Assembly: GCA_021784555.1 (NCBI GenBank)
Contig: JAJYHY010000029.1
Span: 1-40,643 of the forward strand
DNA: 40,643 bases
Source: a bacterium
GTDB taxonomy: Bacteria > Verrucomicrobiota > Verrucomicrobiia > Limisphaerales > UBA8199
Direction of reading: 5' to 3'
A program made the translations under genes and the position numbers. The notes beneath the pieces are model-generated. The model searched no databases, was not told the origin of the DNA, and was given only the letters and a program-made list of their open reading frames with translations. Below are positions 2,417-40,509 of the stretch, piece by piece (the first letter of the stretch is position 1; every line of letters starts with the position of its first letter).

Positions 2417-2887
2417 ATGAATACGGCCATCCTGGAAAGCGCTCAAACTTACGAACAAGAGAGAGGGAAACCCATGCCCAGCAGGAACCACGCTGCCGCG
2501 CAAACGAACCTGGTCGCGGAGTTTATCAAACAGAGGGAGTACCGCATCTTCAGCGAGCTGTCCCTGCAGCTCAACGGGCGTCCCTTGACTCCCGACCTCC
2601 CCGTTTACCCCCGCCGGCCCGTTGATTTCCGTTATGACGAGGTGCATTTGATTGAGCCCCCGGTGCTTGTCGTTGAGATCCTTTCCCCCATACAGGGGAT
2701 GCTGGCGGTCATGGCGAAAGTGGAGGCTTACCTCCAGAGCGGGGTGAAGAGTTGCTGGGTCGTCAATCCGCCCCAAAGAGTTATCAGCATCTACACCCCC
2801 GACGGCGCTACCAAAACATACGCCGAAGGGGTGGCCAAGGACCCCGCCACCGGCCTGACCGCGGATTTAAACGCCGTGTTTTCGTGA
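2417..2887 (+). CDS. Uma2 family protein (DUF820, PD-(D/E)xK nuclease fold)
   Basis: This 156-residue protein has the core of the Uma2/DUF820 family: LTPDLPVYP carrying the acidic metal ligand, then PVLVVEILSP carrying the E-x-L position of the PD-(D/E)xK active site, then a helix with K (KVEAYLQSGVKSCWVVNP). The product ends with the usual strand-rich tail (ISIYTPDGATKTYAEG). The family has a restriction-endonuclease-like fold and is very abundant in cyanobacteria, Planctomycetota and Verrucomicrobiota; its true role is unknown. It is slightly short of the usual 180-200 residues, mainly at the N-terminus, which has little resemblance to the family start. The gene stands alone: upstream is the decayed prepilin-like gene on the other strand, downstream the convergent helicase gene. 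Confidence 0.8.
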   Translation: MNTAILESAQTYEQERGKPMPSRNHAAAQTNLVAEFIKQREYRIFSELSLQLNGRPLTPDLPVYPRRPVDFRYDEVHLIEPPVLVVEILSPIQGMLAVMAKVEAYLQSGVKSCWVVNPPQRVISIYTPDGATKTYAEGVAKDPATGLTADLNAVFS

Positions 2888-2954
2888 GCGAATCGGCCGC
2901 CTTTTGCTCCCGTGAGGGCCATGTGAGGCCACTTTCCTCACTACGGTCGTAGCG

Positions 2955-5030
2955 TTAGTCCAGGCCGGCGCGGACGACGTCGAACATGCTCTTGGCGGAT
3001 TCGACCGGAACCGGGCGGGTGGCTTTCTGGTCGGCGTGTTCAACCAGTTCGGGCGGCAGGTCTTTGAGGAAGGGCGAGGGGTGGCAGACGGCAGGCTTTC
3101 CAAATTTCTGGCGTGTGGCGCAGTGGCTGATGGTCAGGCCGCGCATGGCGCGGGTGATGGCGACATAGAACAGCCGCCGTTCCTCGTCCAGCGTCCCTTC
3201 CTCCTTTGAGCGCGCGTGCGGCAGGAGGCCGTCTTCCATGCCAACGACATAGACGTTGGGGAACTCCAGCCCCTTGCAACTATGCATGGTGATGAGCGTG
3301 ACGGAGTCTCCGTGCGCCTCGTCTTTATCGTTGCGGTCGCTGTCGAGGCTGATCTCCTCCAGGAACCGTTCCAATCGTTCGGACGCCGGCGGAGAGCCGG
3401 ATTCGCCGCCATCCAGCGTGGCCATCAACTCCTTCAGATTGCGGATTCTCGCCTCGGCCGCCTCGGCGGTCTTTTCGAGCCGCCGCAAATCATTGAAATA
3501 GCCGACCCGGTCCAGGAATTCCTCCGCCCACGTCTGAAGAGGGCGGGGAAGACCGGCGAGGGTGCCATGCAGGAGCCGGTCACGAGTTTGCTCCACGAGT
3601 TGGACGAAGGCCTCGATGGACTGAGCGGTCCGCGCTTGGAAAGTGGCGACAACGGCCGGGTTTTTCATCACGTCGAAGACGGAGATCTTGTGCTCGTGGC
3701 TGGCGGCCAGGAGCCGTTCCATCGTGACATCCGTCATGCCGCGCGCCGGGACGTTGGCGATGCGCAGCAGGCTAACGTCGTCGCGCGGGTTAAGGAATGT
3801 CTTGAGGTAGGCAAGGAAATCGCGAACCTCGCGCCGGTCAAAGAAGCTTTGGCCGCCCACCAGATGGTAAGGGACGCCGGCCTGGCGGAGGGCAGTTTCC
3901 AGCGGCCGGGACTGGGCGTTGGTGCGAAAGAGGATGGCGTGCTCGGCCAGGGGCGTGCGCCGGGCCAGCCGGGCAAAGTTGATCTGCTCAACAATCGTCC
4001 GCGCCTCCTCTTCTTCGTTTTTGAAGGTATAAAGGTTGACCTTGGGGCCGTCCCCTTTCTGGGACCAGAGGTGTTTGCCGCGGCGCCGGAGGTTATGCTT
4101 GATGACGGCGTTGGCGGCGTTGAGGATGGTGTTGGTTGAACGGTAGTTCTGCTCCAGCTTGATGACCTTGACCTCCGGGAAGTGCTTCTCCATTTCGAGC
4201 AGGTTCGAGATCTGGGCCCCGCGCCATCCGTAGATGCTCTGGTCGTCATCCCCCACCACACAGAGGTTGCGATGCGTAGAGGTGAGGGCGTGAACCAGCT
4301 TGAATTGAGCGGCGTTGGTGTCCTGGTATTCATCGACCATCACGTAACGGTACTTGGTTCGGCAGGCCTCGAGGGCATCCGGCTGTTCCTCGAAGAGCCG
4401 CAACGTCAGCAGAATTAAATCATCAAAATCGACCGCATTGCAGGCGCGCAAGGCCGACTCATAGCGCGGACGGATCTGCTGGGCGATTTCGCATTCAATC
4501 GGGCCAGCGGCAAAGGCGCCCTCATCGCCCGCGTTCTTGAGACGGCTGAGCCAATGGAGAACCGTTGGCGCATCGACCTTCTCGCCCTTGACGGAGAGAC
4601 GCGCCAGGACTTTCCTGAGCGCGCCGAGTTGCTCGGATTCGTTGTAAATAACGAAATTGCGCTTATAGCCGAGTTTCTCGATGTGCTGGCGCAGGATGCG
4701 AACGCACAGGGAGTGGAAAGTGCAAAGCGTCGGACGGGATGAGGCCTCGGCGCCGGGTGTGCCCTGGGCGCCCCGAACGCCGGTCTTCCGGTTTCGGGCC
4801 GGTCTGGCGACGAGTTTGGCGACCCGTTCTTGCATCTCGCGCGCGGCCTTGTTGGTAAAGGTCACGCCGAGAATGTTGTCGCTGGGAATGCCACGCGCGA
4901 TGAGATGGGCGATGCGATAGGTGATGACGCGGGTCTTGCCCGTGCCGGCCCCGGCCAGAATCAGCACCGGGCCGTCGAGAGTCTCCACGGCAAGGCGCTG
5001 CTGCGGGTTGAGGGTGTGAAGGCTAAGCAT
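2955..5030 (-). CDS. UvrD/PcrA-type superfamily 1A DNA helicase
   Basis: A 691-residue 3'-5' ATP-dependent DNA helicase for repair and replication restart. Motifs in order: Q-motif (LNPQQRLAVE, residues 7-16), Walker A GAGTGKT (27-33), motif Ia (VTFTNKAAREM), Walker B DEYQDT (233-238), motif III GDDDQSIYGWRG (260-271), motif IV QNYRS (294-298), motif V (TLITMHSCKGLEFPNVYVVG) and motif VI (EERRLFYVAITRA). VAITRA rather than VGITRA is normal in many homologues. The length is a little below the 720-740 of PcrA/UvrD; the C-terminal Tudor-like RNA-polymerase-binding region is short or absent. Residues 76-100 (rich in R, G, A, P) look like a low-complexity insertion in domain 1A. The start ATG at 5030 puts the Q-motif at the expected distance. 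The gene is monocistronic. uvrD, pcrA and rep are not separable by eye. Confidence 0.93.
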   Translation of the reverse strand: MLSLHTLNPQQRLAVETLDGPVLILAGAGTGKTRVITYRIAHLIARGIPSDNILGVTFTNKAAREMQERVAKLVARPARNRKTGVRGAQGTPGAEASSRPTLCTFHSLCVRILRQHIEKLGYKRNFVIYNESEQLGALRKVLARLSVKGEKVDAPTVLHWLSRLKNAGDEGAFAAGPIECEIAQQIRPRYESALRACNAVDFDDLILLTLRLFEEQPDALEACRTKYRYVMVDEYQDTNAAQFKLVHALTSTHRNLCVVGDDDQSIYGWRGAQISNLLEMEKHFPEVKVIKLEQNYRSTNTILNAANAVIKHNLRRRGKHLWSQKGDGPKVNLYTFKNEEEEARTIVEQINFARLARRTPLAEHAILFRTNAQSRPLETALRQAGVPYHLVGGQSFFDRREVRDFLAYLKTFLNPRDDVSLLRIANVPARGMTDVTMERLLAASHEHKISVFDVMKNPAVVATFQARTAQSIEAFVQLVEQTRDRLLHGTLAGLPRPLQTWAEEFLDRVGYFNDLRRLEKTAEAAEARIRNLKELMATLDGGESGSPPASERLERFLEEISLDSDRNDKDEAHGDSVTLITMHSCKGLEFPNVYVVGMEDGLLPHARSKEEGTLDEERRLFYVAITRAMRGLTISHCATRQKFGKPAVCHPSPFLKDLPPELVEHADQKATRPVPVESAKSMFDVVRAGLD

Positions 5031-23858: not shown

Positions 23859-23943
23859 GCGCATATGGCGGAATTGGCAGACGCGCTACTTTGAGGTGGT
23901 AGTGGGGTAACCCGTGCAGGTTCAAGTCCTGCTATGCGCACCA
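23859..23943 (+). tRNA. tRNA-Leu (anticodon GAG)
   Basis: 85 bases with the 3' CCA encoded. Acceptor arms GCGCATA and TATGCGC pair fully. The anticodon arm CTACT / GGTAG encloses loop TTGAGGT with anticodon GAG at 23893-23895. A variable arm with GGG/CCC marks a class II tRNA, and the T-arm (GCAGG TTCAAGT CCTGC) is complete. The tyrosine integrase lies directly downstream, so the 3' half of this gene is the probable integration site of the island. Confidence 0.95.
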
Positions 23944-24154: not shown

Positions 24155-25423
24155 GTGAGCCGGGTGAAGGACTGTGCCACCTACAGCGAGGCCAAGCGCG
24201 AGGGAGACAAGGTGGTCGGGGACCTAGTCAAAAGCTCCCAGGCCGCCGTTCTATCGCCCGGGCAGACCAGTGACGCCCTGGCTGCGCTTCAGCGGCTCCA
24301 ACGCTTCTACCGAGACACTGGACAGCGCGTTTCCCTGCTTGCTGGAATTTCCGGCTACTGTGAGGCGGTTGCTCGGCTTAACGGACGCACACTCGCCGAG
24401 GCCGTTGACGGGTTCCTCAGCACTGCCGTCATGGTGCGCCGGAAGGATCTCGCGGAGGCCGTCGAGGAATTGATAGCCACCGAAGAGCCGCGCACCAGAG
24501 CTGCCGATGGCCGGCGGGCGCAACTCTCACCGAAGTACGCCTACAACCGCGCCATTATGTTGCGCCGATTCGCGGGCGCCTTCCCCGACACAGCCGTGTC
24601 CGACCTGACCAAGGACGACCTGGACGCATTCATTTCGAACCTCGCCGACCTGAAATCAAGGTCCCGCAACGGCAAACCGGTTGCCTCCTCAAAAGCCCGG
24701 AATCATCACCGGGCCGCCATCCGCCAATTCCTCCAATGGGCGGTCCGCAAGGATTACCTGCCCGTGAACCACCGCCTGGCCGAGGCAGACGCCATGCGCC
24801 CCGAACACGGCAACGAGGCGGAAATCGAGTTTTACACCCCCGCCGAACTGGCGGCACTACTTGAAGCCGCGGACGGGCCGGAGGAAAGCTCCATGCGCGC
24901 CATGATCGCCATCGGCGGACTGGCCGGACTCCGGACCGCCGAATTGCTCCGGTTGACCTGGCAGGATGTTTGGCGCGTCGAGAATCACATCGAGGTTACG
25001 GCCGGCAAGGCCAAGACCCGCCAGCGCCGCCTTGTCGAAATCTGCCCCGCCCTGGCCGCTTGGCTCGAACCATACCGCGCCTTCACGGAGGGCCAGCTTT
25101 GCGGCCTTCACGAAATCACCTGGCAGCAGCATTTCGTTGCCCTCTGCGAAGGGACGCGCGTCGAGGTCAAAGGCAGGCTGGTTCCGGTTCAGCGCAAACC
25201 TAATTGGTTGCGCCACGCCTTTTGCTCCTACCACTTCGCCTTGCACGGCAACGAGAACCTGACCGCCCAGCAGGCCGGCAACTCGCCCGCCATGGTCCAT
25301 CAGCATTACAAAGGGCTGGCCACCAAGAAAGAGGCGGAAGCCTGGTTCGCCGTGGCCCCGGAGCAGCCCGCCAATGTCCTCCTCCTCGCCGCCCGGCAAG
25401 CCACCGTAACACAACCAAGCTGA
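24155..25423 (+). CDS. Tyrosine recombinase (phage/island integrase), N-terminus frameshifted
   Basis: 422 residues from the GTG at 24155. The catalytic set is R260 (GLAGLRTAELLRL), K285 (AGKAKTRQR), N-W-L-R with R353 in place of H-x-x-R, H382 and Y385 (MVHQHYKGL), so the active site is complete apart from an N for the first histidine, which occurs in related integrases. The core-binding domain spans about 125-205. Translation upstream shows a lesion: TTG at 24087 starts MATIYKRPE, the normal N-terminus, but the frame is lost between 24104 and 24113; the correct continuation (YRLYWRTRVDGRPVSRVKD) is in the frame of this ORF, which meets a TAA at 24101. A one-base indel explains it. The arm-binding N-terminus may therefore be lost, or this is a sequencing error. 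It lies just after tRNA-Leu and would integrate the island there. Confidence 0.85.
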   Translation: MSRVKDCATYSEAKREGDKVVGDLVKSSQAAVLSPGQTSDALAALQRLQRFYRDTGQRVSLLAGISGYCEAVARLNGRTLAEAVDGFLSTAVMVRRKDLAEAVEELIATEEPRTRAADGRRAQLSPKYAYNRAIMLRRFAGAFPDTAVSDLTKDDLDAFISNLADLKSRSRNGKPVASSKARNHHRAAIRQFLQWAVRKDYLPVNHRLAEADAMRPEHGNEAEIEFYTPAELAALLEAADGPEESSMRAMIAIGGLAGLRTAELLRLTWQDVWRVENHIEVTAGKAKTRQRRLVEICPALAAWLEPYRAFTEGQLCGLHEITWQQHFVALCEGTRVEVKGRLVPVQRKPNWLRHAFCSYHFALHGNENLTAQQAGNSPAMVHQHYKGLATKKEAEAWFAVAPEQPANVLLLAARQATVTQPS

Positions 25424-25960: not shown

Positions 25961-26425
25961 CCCCCTGGGGGGATTCAGACTTTCGTTTGCCGCGGCTTTA
26001 CCTCTCTCTCCAGCCTGGCGCAAGCGCCCCGCACCTTCCGGGATGCGGAGTCAGCCGGCAAGCTGGTCCGGGCTCTCTACTTCGGCGACCATGACCCTTC
26101 GGGCAGACTCATCGACCAAGTTGCCGAGCGCACCCTGGCCGAGGACTTTGGCGTGAGCGTGGAGTTTCGCCGGGTAGCCGTAACGGAGCAGCAGATCGCG
26201 GAGTGGAATCTCCCCACTCGGTCCACCAAGATCACGACTCACAGCCGCGGCTGGAGCGGCGGCGATTCCGTCGAAATCGACACCATCCGTACCGCCGACT
26301 TGAAGGCGCTTGTTGAGCGCGAAATCAAGCAGGTTATTGATCCCCACCAATGGCAGAGGATGCTGGCCATCGAACAGGAGGAACGCCTTACCCTCCGCCA
26401 GATGATCGGGAGAAGGGCCGCGTGA
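25961..26425 (+). pseudogene. TOPRIM-domain protein, N-terminally truncated remnant
   Basis: The open frame reads FVCRGFTSLSSLAQAPRTFR, LVRALYFGDHDPSGRLIDQV, then VEFRRVAVTEQQIAEWNLPT and VEIDTIRTADLKALVEREI. G-D-H-D-P-S-G is the TOPRIM D-x-D metal site, and the rest resembles the C-terminal half of TOPRIM proteins carried by mobile elements (topoisomerase VI A-like). There is no start codon before 26153 (GTG), and the frame is closed at 25958-25960. The upstream frame ends MTPWG just before a run of six G (25967-25972); removing one G would join it to IQTFVCRGF in frame. So both a homopolymer frameshift and loss of the N-terminal half are likely. The toxin-antitoxin pair now occupies the position where the missing half would be. 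Confidence 0.6.
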
Positions 26426-28150: not shown

Positions 28151-28383
28151 CCGACTGGTGCCTCAACTCTTCGCGCCATCTTCCAACACACGCTCCTGCC
28201 GCCTTCCCGCAGACTCAGGAAGCGCCGGATCATCACCGACCTCCGACGCAATTCGCCATTCCCCGCATGCAGAATATCAGTTGCGAATTCGTGATCCCAA
28301 CCACTACCGCATCGGCCACCAGGCCCAGTGCCAGAAGCGATAGAGCTTTCTGCGGTTGTGCATTGAGCGCTCCCATAATCGCA

Positions 28384-28521
28384 ACCATCATCCAGCGCCA
28401 GCGCCACCACCGCCTGCCCGGCCGCCAGCTCGCCCACGTGCGTATACTGCCGCGTCATCGCCGGGTCGCCGTGCCCGTGCCCGACGACAATCGCCTCGAC
28501 CACAGCCAGCGGCGCGTTGCC
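28384..28521 (-). pseudogene. Tyrosine recombinase C-terminal fragment
   Basis: The minus strand reads NAPLAVVEAIV, then GHGHGDPAMTRQYTHVGELA, then AAGQAVVAL, the C-terminal end of a tyrosine integrase with the nucleophile tyrosine in R-Q-Y (28444-28446). GHGHG looks like a 6-base tandem duplication of GGGCAC; the normal sequence would be IVGHGDPAM. Upstream the frame runs into stops and the catalytic R and K regions are absent. The missing middle and the N-terminal fragment at 30691-30979 on the same strand suggest one former gene. Confidence 0.7.
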
Positions 28522-28598
28522 CTCGTCGCCGTCACGCTTTGGATCATCCCACGCGCCTTCAAAAACGCCCTCTTCTCTCGGCTATTCGCCCACTTCGT

Positions 28599-28682: not shown

Positions 28683-29525
28683 TCACCTCCGGACTCCCGT
28701 CCCGGCCGGCGGCGGAAGGACGCGTTCAATGTTCGTGTATTTGCCGTCAGGGCTGGGTTTGGTGACCACTCGGCAGGGCAGATTGAACGTCATCCCGTCG
28801 GCGATGACCGCCCCCACGTCAGCGTATCTGGCATCGGTGACGGCTCCGGCCAACTGCCTCTCGCTACCGAACAGCTTAAGCACGTGGCCGTTGACCTGGA
28901 TGTTGAGGAAGAGGCGCTTGCCCCATTTACCGTTCATGGAGGCAACGGCGAGCATCTGGCCCGGCACGGCATTGGCCGTGTCCTGGCTGTTGTTGCCGTT
29001 GCCCGCTGTCTTCCCGTTCTTCCCGTTGCCGTTCGTCTTGATGAAGCCGTTGGCGATATCCGCCTGGAGCGCAAGAATCTTTCCGGCGCGGCTCTTGAGT
29101 TCCTCCGGCGTGCTCTTGCCAATCGGCAGAGAGAACTCAACCGAGAGGGAATCGATCCGGCCGTCCGGGCTGACGCTGCGCTTCAGGAGCATCACGGCGC
29201 CGTTGCCGTTCTTGCCGGCGGGCGCTTTCCGGGCGGTGCTGGTTGGCGGCTGGTTGCCGCTGCGGCTCCCGGCCGGCGCCGGCGTCGCCTCCGCTTGCGG
29301 CGGACTCGGCGTGTTCATTTCCTGGAGCACGGCCAGGATGTGCTTGCAAAGGTATTCCGGGTCGCCATCGTGGCTCCCGAACTCCGGGCAGGTGCAGTGC
29401 GGTTCATCGGGCAGTCCGGTGACCACATATTGCTTTGCCGGTGTCAGTGGCGAACAGACCCGAAACCCTTCGTCCGTCTTGGCGATGACGAAGGTCTCAG
29501 TGCCTGAAGTCGTTGTGGTATTCAT
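28683..29525 (-). CDS. SWIM zinc-finger domain protein with Gly/Asn-rich linker
   Basis: 280 residues from the ATG at 29525, which follows AAGGAAGGATAG, a clear Shine-Dalgarno sequence; longer starts are not supported. Near the N-terminus CTCPEFGSHDGDPEYLCKH fits the SWIM pattern C-x-C-x13-C-x-H (C44, C46, C60, H62), a zinc-binding, probably nucleic-acid- or protein-binding module. A proline/alanine linker and two Gly/Asn-rich stretches (KNGNG; NGNGKNGKTAGNGNN) separate two globular parts (AVMLLKRSVSPDGRIDSLSV; LFLNIQVNGHVLKLFGSERQ). SWIM proteins of this kind are seen in mobile elements with unknown role. It is divergent from the XamI-like gene (36 bases between starts), so a shared promoter region is likely. 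Confidence 0.75.
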   Translation of the reverse strand: MNTTTTSGTETFVIAKTDEGFRVCSPLTPAKQYVVTGLPDEPHCTCPEFGSHDGDPEYLCKHILAVLQEMNTPSPPQAEATPAPAGSRSGNQPPTSTARKAPAGKNGNGAVMLLKRSVSPDGRIDSLSVEFSLPIGKSTPEELKSRAGKILALQADIANGFIKTNGNGKNGKTAGNGNNSQDTANAVPGQMLAVASMNGKWGKRLFLNIQVNGHVLKLFGSERQLAGAVTDARYADVGAVIADGMTFNLPCRVVTKPSPDGKYTNIERVLPPPAGTGVRR

Positions 29526-29560
29526 AACTATCCTTCCTTTCCGTATGTAATTGCGGTGTT

Positions 29561-30499
29561 TTGGGGGCGGTCTTGGGAAGCGCGCGCTCCGTTGATCTTT
29601 ATAATGCCTGGTTTCTTGAGTTCGCCCCAAAGGCATTTCGAGAAACACGAATCGAAACGACTAGAACTGTCGAGCAGGCATTGGAATGGACCGAGTCCAT
29701 GAGGTCTATCACGCCGGAGGTGCTGGTAGCGCATCCGAAAATCATTCCTATGTTGCGAATGAGCACCTGTCCGCCTATCGCACGCGATCGGCTCATCGGC
29801 CTAGCCCAGGTGTCTCCCTCTCTTGTCCGCTCCATGGAGATTGAGGGAAGGGTCCCGCCGAAGATGCTCCAGCTTCAACTCGAAAAGGCGATTTTCAAGA
29901 TCATCTCGACCATTACTGCCATGGTCGATCCAGACATTTTTGTCTGGCTCAGAAGATCTGTTCCACCGGAGGAAGTTGAAATTCACCGTGCCGCAACCAT
30001 CGTGGCCGATAGGCTTTGTGGGGCTGTTGCTGACCCCATTGTCCGTAATGCACAGGAACAGCGGCAACTCGGGCTCATCGCTCAATGGTTGCAGAAGCGC
30101 GGCTATCGACAGATCAAGCAGAGCGACGCGAGGAGTCTCGCAATTTTCCCTGCGGGTACATTCGCATTCCGATATAATGTTCCAGTGGTCCATGATGATA
30201 GGGGCGGAAAGGTCAATATTCCCATTGATGTTGTTATCAGCCCAAAGTCAAAGCTCCGGGGCGTGTTGCCGCTTCTGGTCGAGGCAAAGTCCGCTGGCGA
30301 CTTTACAAACGTCAACAAGCGGCGGAAGGAGGAAGCAACGAAAATAAACCAACTCCGCAAGTCGTATGGAAAAAAAGTCAGATTTGCGCTCTTTCTCTGC
30401 GCGTACTTTGATTCTGGCTATTTGGGATATGAAGCGGCTGAGGGCATCGACTGGGTATGGGAACACCGAATTGATGACCTGGCACAGTTTGGACTTTAG
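29561..30499 (+). CDS. XamI-like type II restriction endonuclease
   Basis: 312 residues from the TTG at 29561. The C-terminal half has a PD-(D/E)xK site: PID (D223) followed by PLLVEAKSAGDFTNVNKRRK with E241-A-K243, and then conserved helix KINQLRKSYG and a FDSGYLGYEA tail as in the XamI family. The helical N-terminal half (ITPEVLVAHPKIIPMLR, then LIGLAQVSPSLVRSMEIEG) also fits. XamI enzymes cut at GTCGAC, but the site cannot be inferred here. TTG is the first start; there is no ATG before residue 47, so the N-terminus may be truncated or rely on TTG. The following gene is the start of the cognate-type methyltransferase, only 3 bases away, but truncated. If active, self-cutting would need another methyltransferase or a dead enzyme. 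Confidence 0.65.
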   Translation: MGAVLGSARSVDLYNAWFLEFAPKAFRETRIETTRTVEQALEWTESMRSITPEVLVAHPKIIPMLRMSTCPPIARDRLIGLAQVSPSLVRSMEIEGRVPPKMLQLQLEKAIFKIISTITAMVDPDIFVWLRRSVPPEEVEIHRAATIVADRLCGAVADPIVRNAQEQRQLGLIAQWLQKRGYRQIKQSDARSLAIFPAGTFAFRYNVPVVHDDRGGKVNIPIDVVISPKSKLRGVLPLLVEAKSAGDFTNVNKRRKEEATKINQLRKSYGKKVRFALFLCAYFDSGYLGYEAAEGIDWVWEHRIDDLAQFGL

Positions 30500-30502
30500 A
30501 CC

Positions 30503-30689
30503 ATGGTGCCGCGCAGCGAAATCCACACAGCGAAGGAAGAGGCCCAGCAGGCTGTTGAGATCCTCAGCACCCAAGAGGAGCGAAACGAGCTTGGACAGTT
30601 TTCGACCCCACCGGGGCTAGCGTCACAGATTATCGCCGTTGCGCTCACCTATTTGCCTCGTCGTGAGCCGATCCGGTTCCTCGAACCTC
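30503..30689 (+). pseudogene. DNA methyltransferase N-terminal fragment, cut off at motif I
   Basis: The ATG at 30503, 3 bases after the endonuclease stop, reads EERNELGQFSTPPGLASQII, then YLPRREPIRFLEP. G-Q-F-S-T-P-P followed by F-L-E-P is the start of gamma-type N6-adenine methyltransferases, where motif I (F-L-E-P-x-x-G-x-G) should follow at once. Instead at about 30689 the sequence changes to the inverted 5' part of an integrase, and the frame continues as unrelated residues to 30841. Neither motif I nor the N/D-PPY catalytic motif is present, so no methylation is possible from this gene. Confidence 0.75.
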
Positions 30690-30690
30690 G

Positions 30691-30979
30691 TGGACTCCGA
30701 GCGTCCCTCTCGGATGCCCTGGAACTTTTCAAGCAACTGCGCCAGCGTGGTTTTGCCGGCATCCGTGCTCACGCTTTCCAGGCTCGCAATCCAGTCCTTG
30801 AGCCTCCGCTCGGCCAGCTTGCGATCGGTGGTGTCGAGTGAATGCTCTTTGCGCTTGCCGCCCCGCTTCTTTATTCCATAGTACGTCCCGTTGACCGTAT
30901 GTTTAAAAAGACACGGATGATTTGGAATCTTCGCCAGGAGCTGCCTCGTGCTGAGGTGCTTTGCTCTGTCCATAATCAC
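30691..30979 (-). pseudogene. Tyrosine recombinase N-terminal fragment
   Basis: On the minus strand from 30979 the product starts MIMDRAKHLS, then HTVNGTYYGIKKRGGKRKEH, DTTDRKLAERRLKDWIASLE and AQLLEKFQGI. This matches the N-terminal arm-binding and core-binding start of verrucomicrobial integrases. At about residue 96 (near 30691) homology ends exactly where the methyltransferase fragment on the other strand ends. No catalytic residues are included. The collinear C-terminal piece is at 28384-28521. Confidence 0.7.
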
Positions 30980-31067: not shown

Positions 31068-31143
31068 GGGCGCTTGGCGCAGCGGTTAGCGCGTCTCGTT
31101 TACACCGAGTAGGTCGGGGGTTCAAATCCCTCAGCGCCCACCA
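31068..31143 (+). tRNA. tRNA-Val (anticodon TAC)
   Basis: 76 bases with the 3' CCA. Acceptor arms GGGCGCT and AGCGCCC pair. The anticodon arm (TCTCG/CGAGT, outer pair T-T mismatched) encloses loop TTTACAC with anticodon TAC at 31101-31103. D- and T-arms (GGGGG TTCAAAT CCCTC) are standard. It marks the right side of the island. The last 13 bases overlap the 3' end of moaE on the opposite strand. An AT-rich TATAAA at 31056-31061 could be the -10 element. Confidence 0.93.
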
Positions 31144-39462: not shown

Positions 39463-40509
39463 ATGAGATCGGCTCGCGCCGCTTCGCTCCGGTTGCGAGT
39501 CCTGTGCGGCCTGGTGTGCGCGACACTGTGGCTCGGGCCCTGGAACAGCGCGGCAGCGGCCCAACACCGGGTTGGCGGGGCGGCCGGATTGCTTCTAGTG
39601 GCAAACAAAGGCGACAGGGCCCTGGGTATCATTGATCCTATTAAAGGCAAGGAGATTGCCACCGTCGCTGAGGACGGCGTGACGGGGCACGAGATTGCCG
39701 CTTCACCGGATGGCAAACTCGCCTTCGTTCCGATTTACGGCAATGGTGGCGTTGGCGGACGCGGCACCGATGGCCGGTTGATTCGGGTCATCGATTTGGC
39801 CTCGCGCCGCATCGTCGGGACCATCGACTTCGGCAATGGGGTCCGTCCGCATTGCGCTGTATTTGGTCCCAATGGATTGCTCTACGTGACGGCCGAACTG
39901 GAAGACGCCGTGGCGGTCGTCGACCCGAACACGCTGAAGATCGTGGGAACTATTCCCACCGGTCAGGCGGAGTCGCACATGCTGGCGATCAGCAGTGACG
40001 GAAAGCGCGGCTACACGGCTAATGTCGGCGCTGGCACCGTCTCGGTTTTGGATCTGGAGGCGAAGAAGCTCGTGACCGTTATTCCAGTCTGCCAGGTGAC
40101 CCAGCGGATTTCGCTGTCGATCGATAATCGGTTGGCGTTTACCGCCGACCAGCGTCAGCCGCGCCTGGCGGTCATTGACACCGCCTCTGACAAGGTGAAA
40201 ACCTGGATCCCGCTCCCTGGCATCGGCTACGGAACCAGAGCCACACCGGATGGCAAATGGCTGCTGGTGGCGATGAGCCGCGCCCGGAAGGTCGGGGAGG
40301 TGGATCTTGAGACCATGAGGCTGACTCGGACCCTCGATGTGCCCCGATTTCCCCAGGAGATCCTTGTCCGCCCCGATGGGGCGGTGGCTTATGTGTCGTG
40401 CGATGCCAGCGCCAAGGTCGCCGCCATCGATTTGAAGGGTTGGAAAATCGAGAAGCTGATTGATGCCGGAAGAAACGCCGATGGCTTGGCCTGGGCCCCG
40501 GCGCCGTAA
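39463..40509 (+). CDS. Secreted YVTN-type beta-propeller repeat protein
   Basis: About 348 residues from the ATG at 39463; an in-frame TTG at 39439 adds eight. Signal peptide RAASLRLRVLCGLVCATLWL with AAA-Q site. The mature part is a series of roughly 40-residue beta-propeller blades: GLLLVANKGDRALGIIDPIK, LLYVTAELEDAVAVVDPNTL, RGYTANVGAGTVSVLDLEAK, and DGAVAYVSCDASAKVAAIDL. Seven blades are expected, forming a closed ring. Such proteins act in the periplasm as scaffolds or with redox partners; no enzyme residue is evident. It follows rpsI by about 70 bases but probably has its own promoter. The remaining 134 bases of the window (40510-40643) hold nothing recognised. Confidence 0.82.
   Translation: MRSARAASLRLRVLCGLVCATLWLGPWNSAAAAQHRVGGAAGLLLVANKGDRALGIIDPIKGKEIATVAEDGVTGHEIAASPDGKLAFVPIYGNGGVGGRGTDGRLIRVIDLASRRIVGTIDFGNGVRPHCAVFGPNGLLYVTAELEDAVAVVDPNTLKIVGTIPTGQAESHMLAISSDGKRGYTANVGAGTVSVLDLEAKKLVTVIPVCQVTQRISLSIDNRLAFTADQRQPRLAVIDTASDKVKTWIPLPGIGYGTRATPDGKWLLVAMSRARKVGEVDLETMRLTRTLDVPRFPQEILVRPDGAVAYVSCDASAKVAAIDLKGWKIEKLIDAGRNADGLAWAPAP

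Follow-up and report, generated by a model that had tools for sequence, protein, structure and literature searches.

A restriction endonuclease gene whose companion methyltransferase has been lost raises the question of how the cell that carries it survives. We met such a gene in a contig of 40,643 nt (JAJYHY010000029.1, assembly GCA_021784555.1; hereafter the window) from a bacterium of the Verrucomicrobiota lineage UBA8199. As the methyltransferase is here the more damaged gene of a restriction-modification (R-M) pair, the arrangement can be survived only with an endonuclease that has no activity, is not expressed or does no harm. We consider, with a probability of about 0.84, that positions 29582-30688 are a recent and probably inactive 1.1-kb remnant of a XamI-type R-M operon that was cut at both ends. 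The features on which this reading draws are collected in Table 1.

Table 1. Features of the window between tRNA-Leu and tRNA-Val
Feature	Position	Strand	Evidence
tRNA-Leu, left side of the integrase-rich region	23859-23943		
Tyrosine integrase just downstream of tRNA-Leu	24155-25423	+	PF00589 E=4.8e-7, phrog_1 E=6.6e-30
Topoisomerase fragment	26003-26422		
SWIM zinc-finger gene, transcribed away from the endonuclease	28686-29525	-	PF04434 E=1.7e-5
In-frame foreign extension LGAVLGS, from a TTG codon	29561-29581	+	No alignment to the homologue N-terminus; weak DNA similarity of ~29514-29568 to the 5' flank of the SWIM paralogue
5'-truncated XamI-family type II restriction endonuclease gene	29582-30499	+	PF09572, PADLOC REase_II, alignment with 80 homologues
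Cognate N6-adenine methyltransferase, first 62 codons only, up to FLEP before motif I	30503-30688	+	PDLC03328, homologous N-termini
N-terminal fragment of a tyrosine integrase, ~95 codons, adjoining tRNA-Val	30689-30979	-	58% identity to full-length integrases; phrog_1
tRNA-Val(tac), which bounds the island on the right and precedes moaE	31068-31143	+	ARAGORN

The family of the endonuclease, which an earlier note on this DNA had proposed from the letters alone, was confirmed by profile searches. Positions 29561-30499 form one open frame of 312 codons, the length that the note had given, with no stop and no frameshift; the frame matched positions 2-256 of the 256 positions of Pfam RE_XamI (PF09572) with E=1.2e-107 (359.6 bits, the curated cut-off being 25 bits), a match that disposes of the possibility, raised by the note itself, that XamI homology was lacking. 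The PADLOC model REase_II was matched with E=1.4e-109 at positions 16-312 of 315. A scan of genome contigs gave a homologue set of 80 relatives with 57-67% identity; across their alignment the PD-(D/E)xK residues, likewise noticed earlier, are invariant and are present in the window endonuclease as D223, E241 and K243, and in its structure model a helix comes after the strands at 217-227 and 238-244. In the window 111 of the 118 highly conserved columns are intact. Four of the seven departures are the N-terminal N, W, K and D; in the endonuclease body only 3 of 114 conserved positions are altered, the predicted catalytic residues not among them. Among plasmid records there were 12 matches to the endonuclease, 10 of which cover most of the protein (best full-length match, 61% identity). 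Searches of phage records gave no match, PDB sequence and fold searches gave no significant match, and in the literature on the XamI family we found nothing on point.

The earlier description of an endonuclease that was kept while its methyltransferase was cut turned out to be misleading, since both genes are cut. A conserved N-terminus bearing W-[KR]-x-D, typically M-A-V-N-R-D-K-P-x-x-W-K-A-D-I-A, with its W and D invariant, is found in all 80 homologues and is absent from the window endonuclease, whose alignment to them starts from the final A of this segment, at residue ~8 and base 29582. The gene has lost its first ~15 codons, start codon and ribosome-binding site, 305 codons being left, and is thus not a full-length endonuclease. 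Comparison with full-length homologues, which the note had recommended, therefore supports the one of its options in which the enzyme is inactive and may lack its N-terminus. The W-[KR]-x-D segment lies outside the PF09572 model; as the model begins past the part that was lost, the domain match looks complete despite the truncation.

As the residues upstream of base 29582 do not align to any homologue, the TTG at 29561 is not the endonuclease's own start; the next methionine of the frame is residue 47. Judged by the alignment, the extension LGAVLGS does not derive from the endonuclease, and it is probably part of the upstream region of the divergent SWIM gene. This gene has a paralogue with 64% identity on contig C313 of the same genome (it was not found in the 57 relatives searched), and a stretch at ~29514-29568 shows weak DNA similarity to the 5' flank of that paralogue. 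Its counterpart on C313 forms the 3' end of a small frame, judged by eye to be a ribbon-helix-helix gene.

On the right side, the methyltransferase begins with an ATG 3 bases past the endonuclease stop. The fragment matches positions 16-73 of the 587 positions of the MTase_II model and has 47% identity to residues 18-71 of the protein P0004. Where the fragment breaks off at F-L-E-P, homologous methyltransferases run on as [D/E]P-A-x-G-T-G-[AS]-F-Y; the residues that come next in them, A/G-x-G-T-G, are the SAM loop. Only 62 of ~525 codons are present, i.e. about 88% has been removed, and with the intact cognate methyltransferase absent the locus is not a complete type II R-M system. The claim that the methyltransferase stops at F-L-E-P is right for the homology, which ends there, but not for the frame, which runs on to 30841 as the antisense of the integrase fragment. 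The homology to methyltransferases ends at ~30688 and that to integrases at ~30689, with an uncertainty of a few bases; hence the two genes end at one junction, which lies at motif I by coincidence. The integrase stub has 58% identity to the full-length integrases of two relatives, G021 and G001, and matches phrog_1 with E=3.6e-4; in G021 the full-length integrase adjoins tRNA-Val in the same place as the stub does in the window. Ahead of the stub, at 31015-30986 of the reverse strand, there is a strong sigma-70-like promoter match (TTGACA-18-TAGAAT); the predicted promoter would drive transcription antisense to both gene remnants, first that of the methyltransferase and then that of the endonuclease.

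A full methyltransferase lies directly downstream of the endonuclease in 78 of 78 testable homologues (in the other two the contigs end inside or before the methyltransferase), so that linkage of R and M is the rule and the window holds a broken unit. With XamI-type II systems this unit shares the order of R then M, a short spacing (3 bases in this unit and in 12 of the homologues), the PD-(D/E)xK residues and, for its protein, 60-66% identity to the aligned set; unlike them, with their ~320-aa endonucleases carrying a W-K-x-D N-terminus and methyltransferases mostly of 490-565 aa, it has both genes truncated. Two XamI units with one broken gene were found among the homologues (L048, 8001-8978, and L055, 5919-6833): each endonuclease gene has one in-frame stop and the methyltransferase is of full length. 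This order of decay is the harmless one, unlike that in the window, and is to be expected if an unprotected enzyme does harm.

In the same genome another type II R-M pair, on contig C599 (L105, genes at 1104-2084 and 2841-3551), looks cut as well: the match of its methyltransferase gives out after ~310 of 494 profile positions, and that of its endonuclease covers only positions 148-315 of 317. On contig C47 (L115, 1036-1929) the middle of a methyltransferase-like frame is seemingly missing, the N-terminal motif I region being fused in one open frame to a C-terminal part (profile positions 330-475 of 539).

The region between tRNA-Leu and tRNA-Val is mobile-element debris. The R-M slice has 53.5% GC, its surroundings 61-62%. 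The right flank is native, its order tRNA-Val/moaE/moaD/hpt being found in three relatives of the same family. At 28380-28560 of the reverse strand we noticed by eye a sequence (GDPAMTRQYTHVGELAAGQAV) that may be left over from the C-terminal end of another integrase and for which no family match was obtained at the thresholds used. Between 20000 and 34000 no tRNA-derived direct repeats that could be attachment sites were detected at a tolerance of 3 mismatches per 20 bases.

Taken together, the mobile debris on both flanks, the difference in GC of the slice and the second cut pair on C599 count in favor of a remnant. A complete XamI-type R-M operon, R first and M second, would have been acquired horizontally, and rearrangements in an integration hotspot between the two tRNA genes would then have trimmed it at both ends by true deletions, the left one taking away the start of the endonuclease along with ~15 codons, and the right one most of the methyltransferase, whose rest it joined to the oppositely oriented integrase stub. 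What is left is probably not expressed as an active enzyme. The few changes in the endonuclease body make the break look recent, as it probably is on this comparison, and recency of the damage would explain why the frame is still open. Against a remnant counts the absence of an intact precursor locus: a search of 57 relatives for a precursor or an empty site gave no shared junction, its finds being confined to the native right flank and to the end where an integrase adjoins tRNA-Val.

Among the alternatives, an assembly artefact, i.e. a piece of an intact R-M operon wrongly joined to this locus, is unlikely. The assembly is a fragmented draft (658 contigs, 87% complete, 2.7% contamination), and the absence of these junctions from relatives and the GC of the slice would be in line with a false join; still, two false joins at a distance of 1.1 kb would have to have arisen independently, each ending in mobile-element sequence, no other part of the assembly was found to contain the remainder of the methyltransferase, and the native gene order at the right flank is intact.

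The next alternative, a live solitary endonuclease that is tolerated because its sites are rare or because another methyltransferase protects them, we regard as very unlikely. Other N6-adenine methyltransferases are encoded in the genome; in the 87% complete draft, though, we found neither a second XamI endonuclease nor a cognate methyltransferase. A full-length XamI-type methyltransferase used as query matched the fragment itself and otherwise gave weak partial matches, which leaves the earlier suggestion of a second, protecting methyltransferase with no positive support. As to the sites, GTCGAC, presumably the XamI cleavage site, is about tenfold depleted (9 copies were observed in 317 kb of the genome, where ~84 would be expected), but it is rare rather than absent, one copy being at 39919 of the window. 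The depletion is shared by relatives of the family and order, where it is about fivefold (counts were made in the window and loci L134-L153, L102, L104, L105 and L118 of the own genome, and in L154-L173 of relatives). With relatives depleted too, and GTAGAC and GTATAC depleted here, avoidance of GTCGAC is probably no specific response to the endonuclease, and this reading was rejected; the depletion characterizes the lineage more widely. The pattern GTMKAC is strongly avoided in the genome (GTCGAC 9/84 observed/expected, GTAGAC 4/47, GTATAC 2/9), while GTCAAC is normal (183/172). CAGCTG (3/59) and GTGCAC (0/40) are avoided too; relatives share the avoidance of CAGCTG and GTCGAC, while the near-absence of GTGCAC is peculiar to this genome. 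Solitary type II endonucleases have been described, as has PacI in a genome without its sites (Ershova et al. 2012, PMC3488263). For the window gene, the loss of the native start and of the conserved N-terminus speaks against such a role.

A variant of this alternative, harder still to credit, has the shortened endonuclease active from the captured TTG, with survival of the cell explained by the earlier loss of ~90% of GTCGAC sites. A protein begun at this TTG would retain the entire PD-(D/E)xK domain, which, together with the open frame, does count against an inactive remnant. AlphaFold models of the truncated endonuclease and of a full-length homologue were of similar, middling confidence (mean pLDDT 76 and 74); as confidence is low at the extreme N-terminus of either model, structure does not show the missing segment to be essential.

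Recruitment of the gene to another role, e.g. DNA binding or regulation, an option of the earlier note that has gained no positive evidence, is barely credible: the open frame and the 111 intact conserved positions agree with it, but a recent break would leave the gene just as conserved, the intact catalytic residues are not required for a non-nuclease role, there is no conserved new partner, and the arrangement is seen in no relative.

Returning to the remnant, a cell with an endonuclease that lacks its native start and conserved N-terminus, and whose methyltransferase is lost too, would need no protection, and the loss of the endonuclease's start and N-terminus is the simplest reason why it is tolerated. 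With both genes cut, the puzzle of an unprotected DNA-cutting enzyme is largely gone.

The locus belongs to the kind of solitary or truncated endonucleases and is a new instance rather than a new phenomenon. The survey of Ershova et al. 2012 catalogued 272 solitary endonuclease genes, with corrupted methyltransferases in 11 type II cases and a probable truncation in 16 type II endonucleases, the truncated ones near mobile elements (PMC3488263). As in those cases, the endonuclease gene of the window has mobile elements and a broken methyltransferase gene as its neighbors; unlike the truncated set, it is short by only ~5%, so that the 20% length rule of that survey would not flag it. Where a gene has been annotated as a solitary restriction endonuclease, the N-terminus is thus worth checking. 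An R-M unit can lose both its halves by breaks at either end and leave behind an open frame that looks live.
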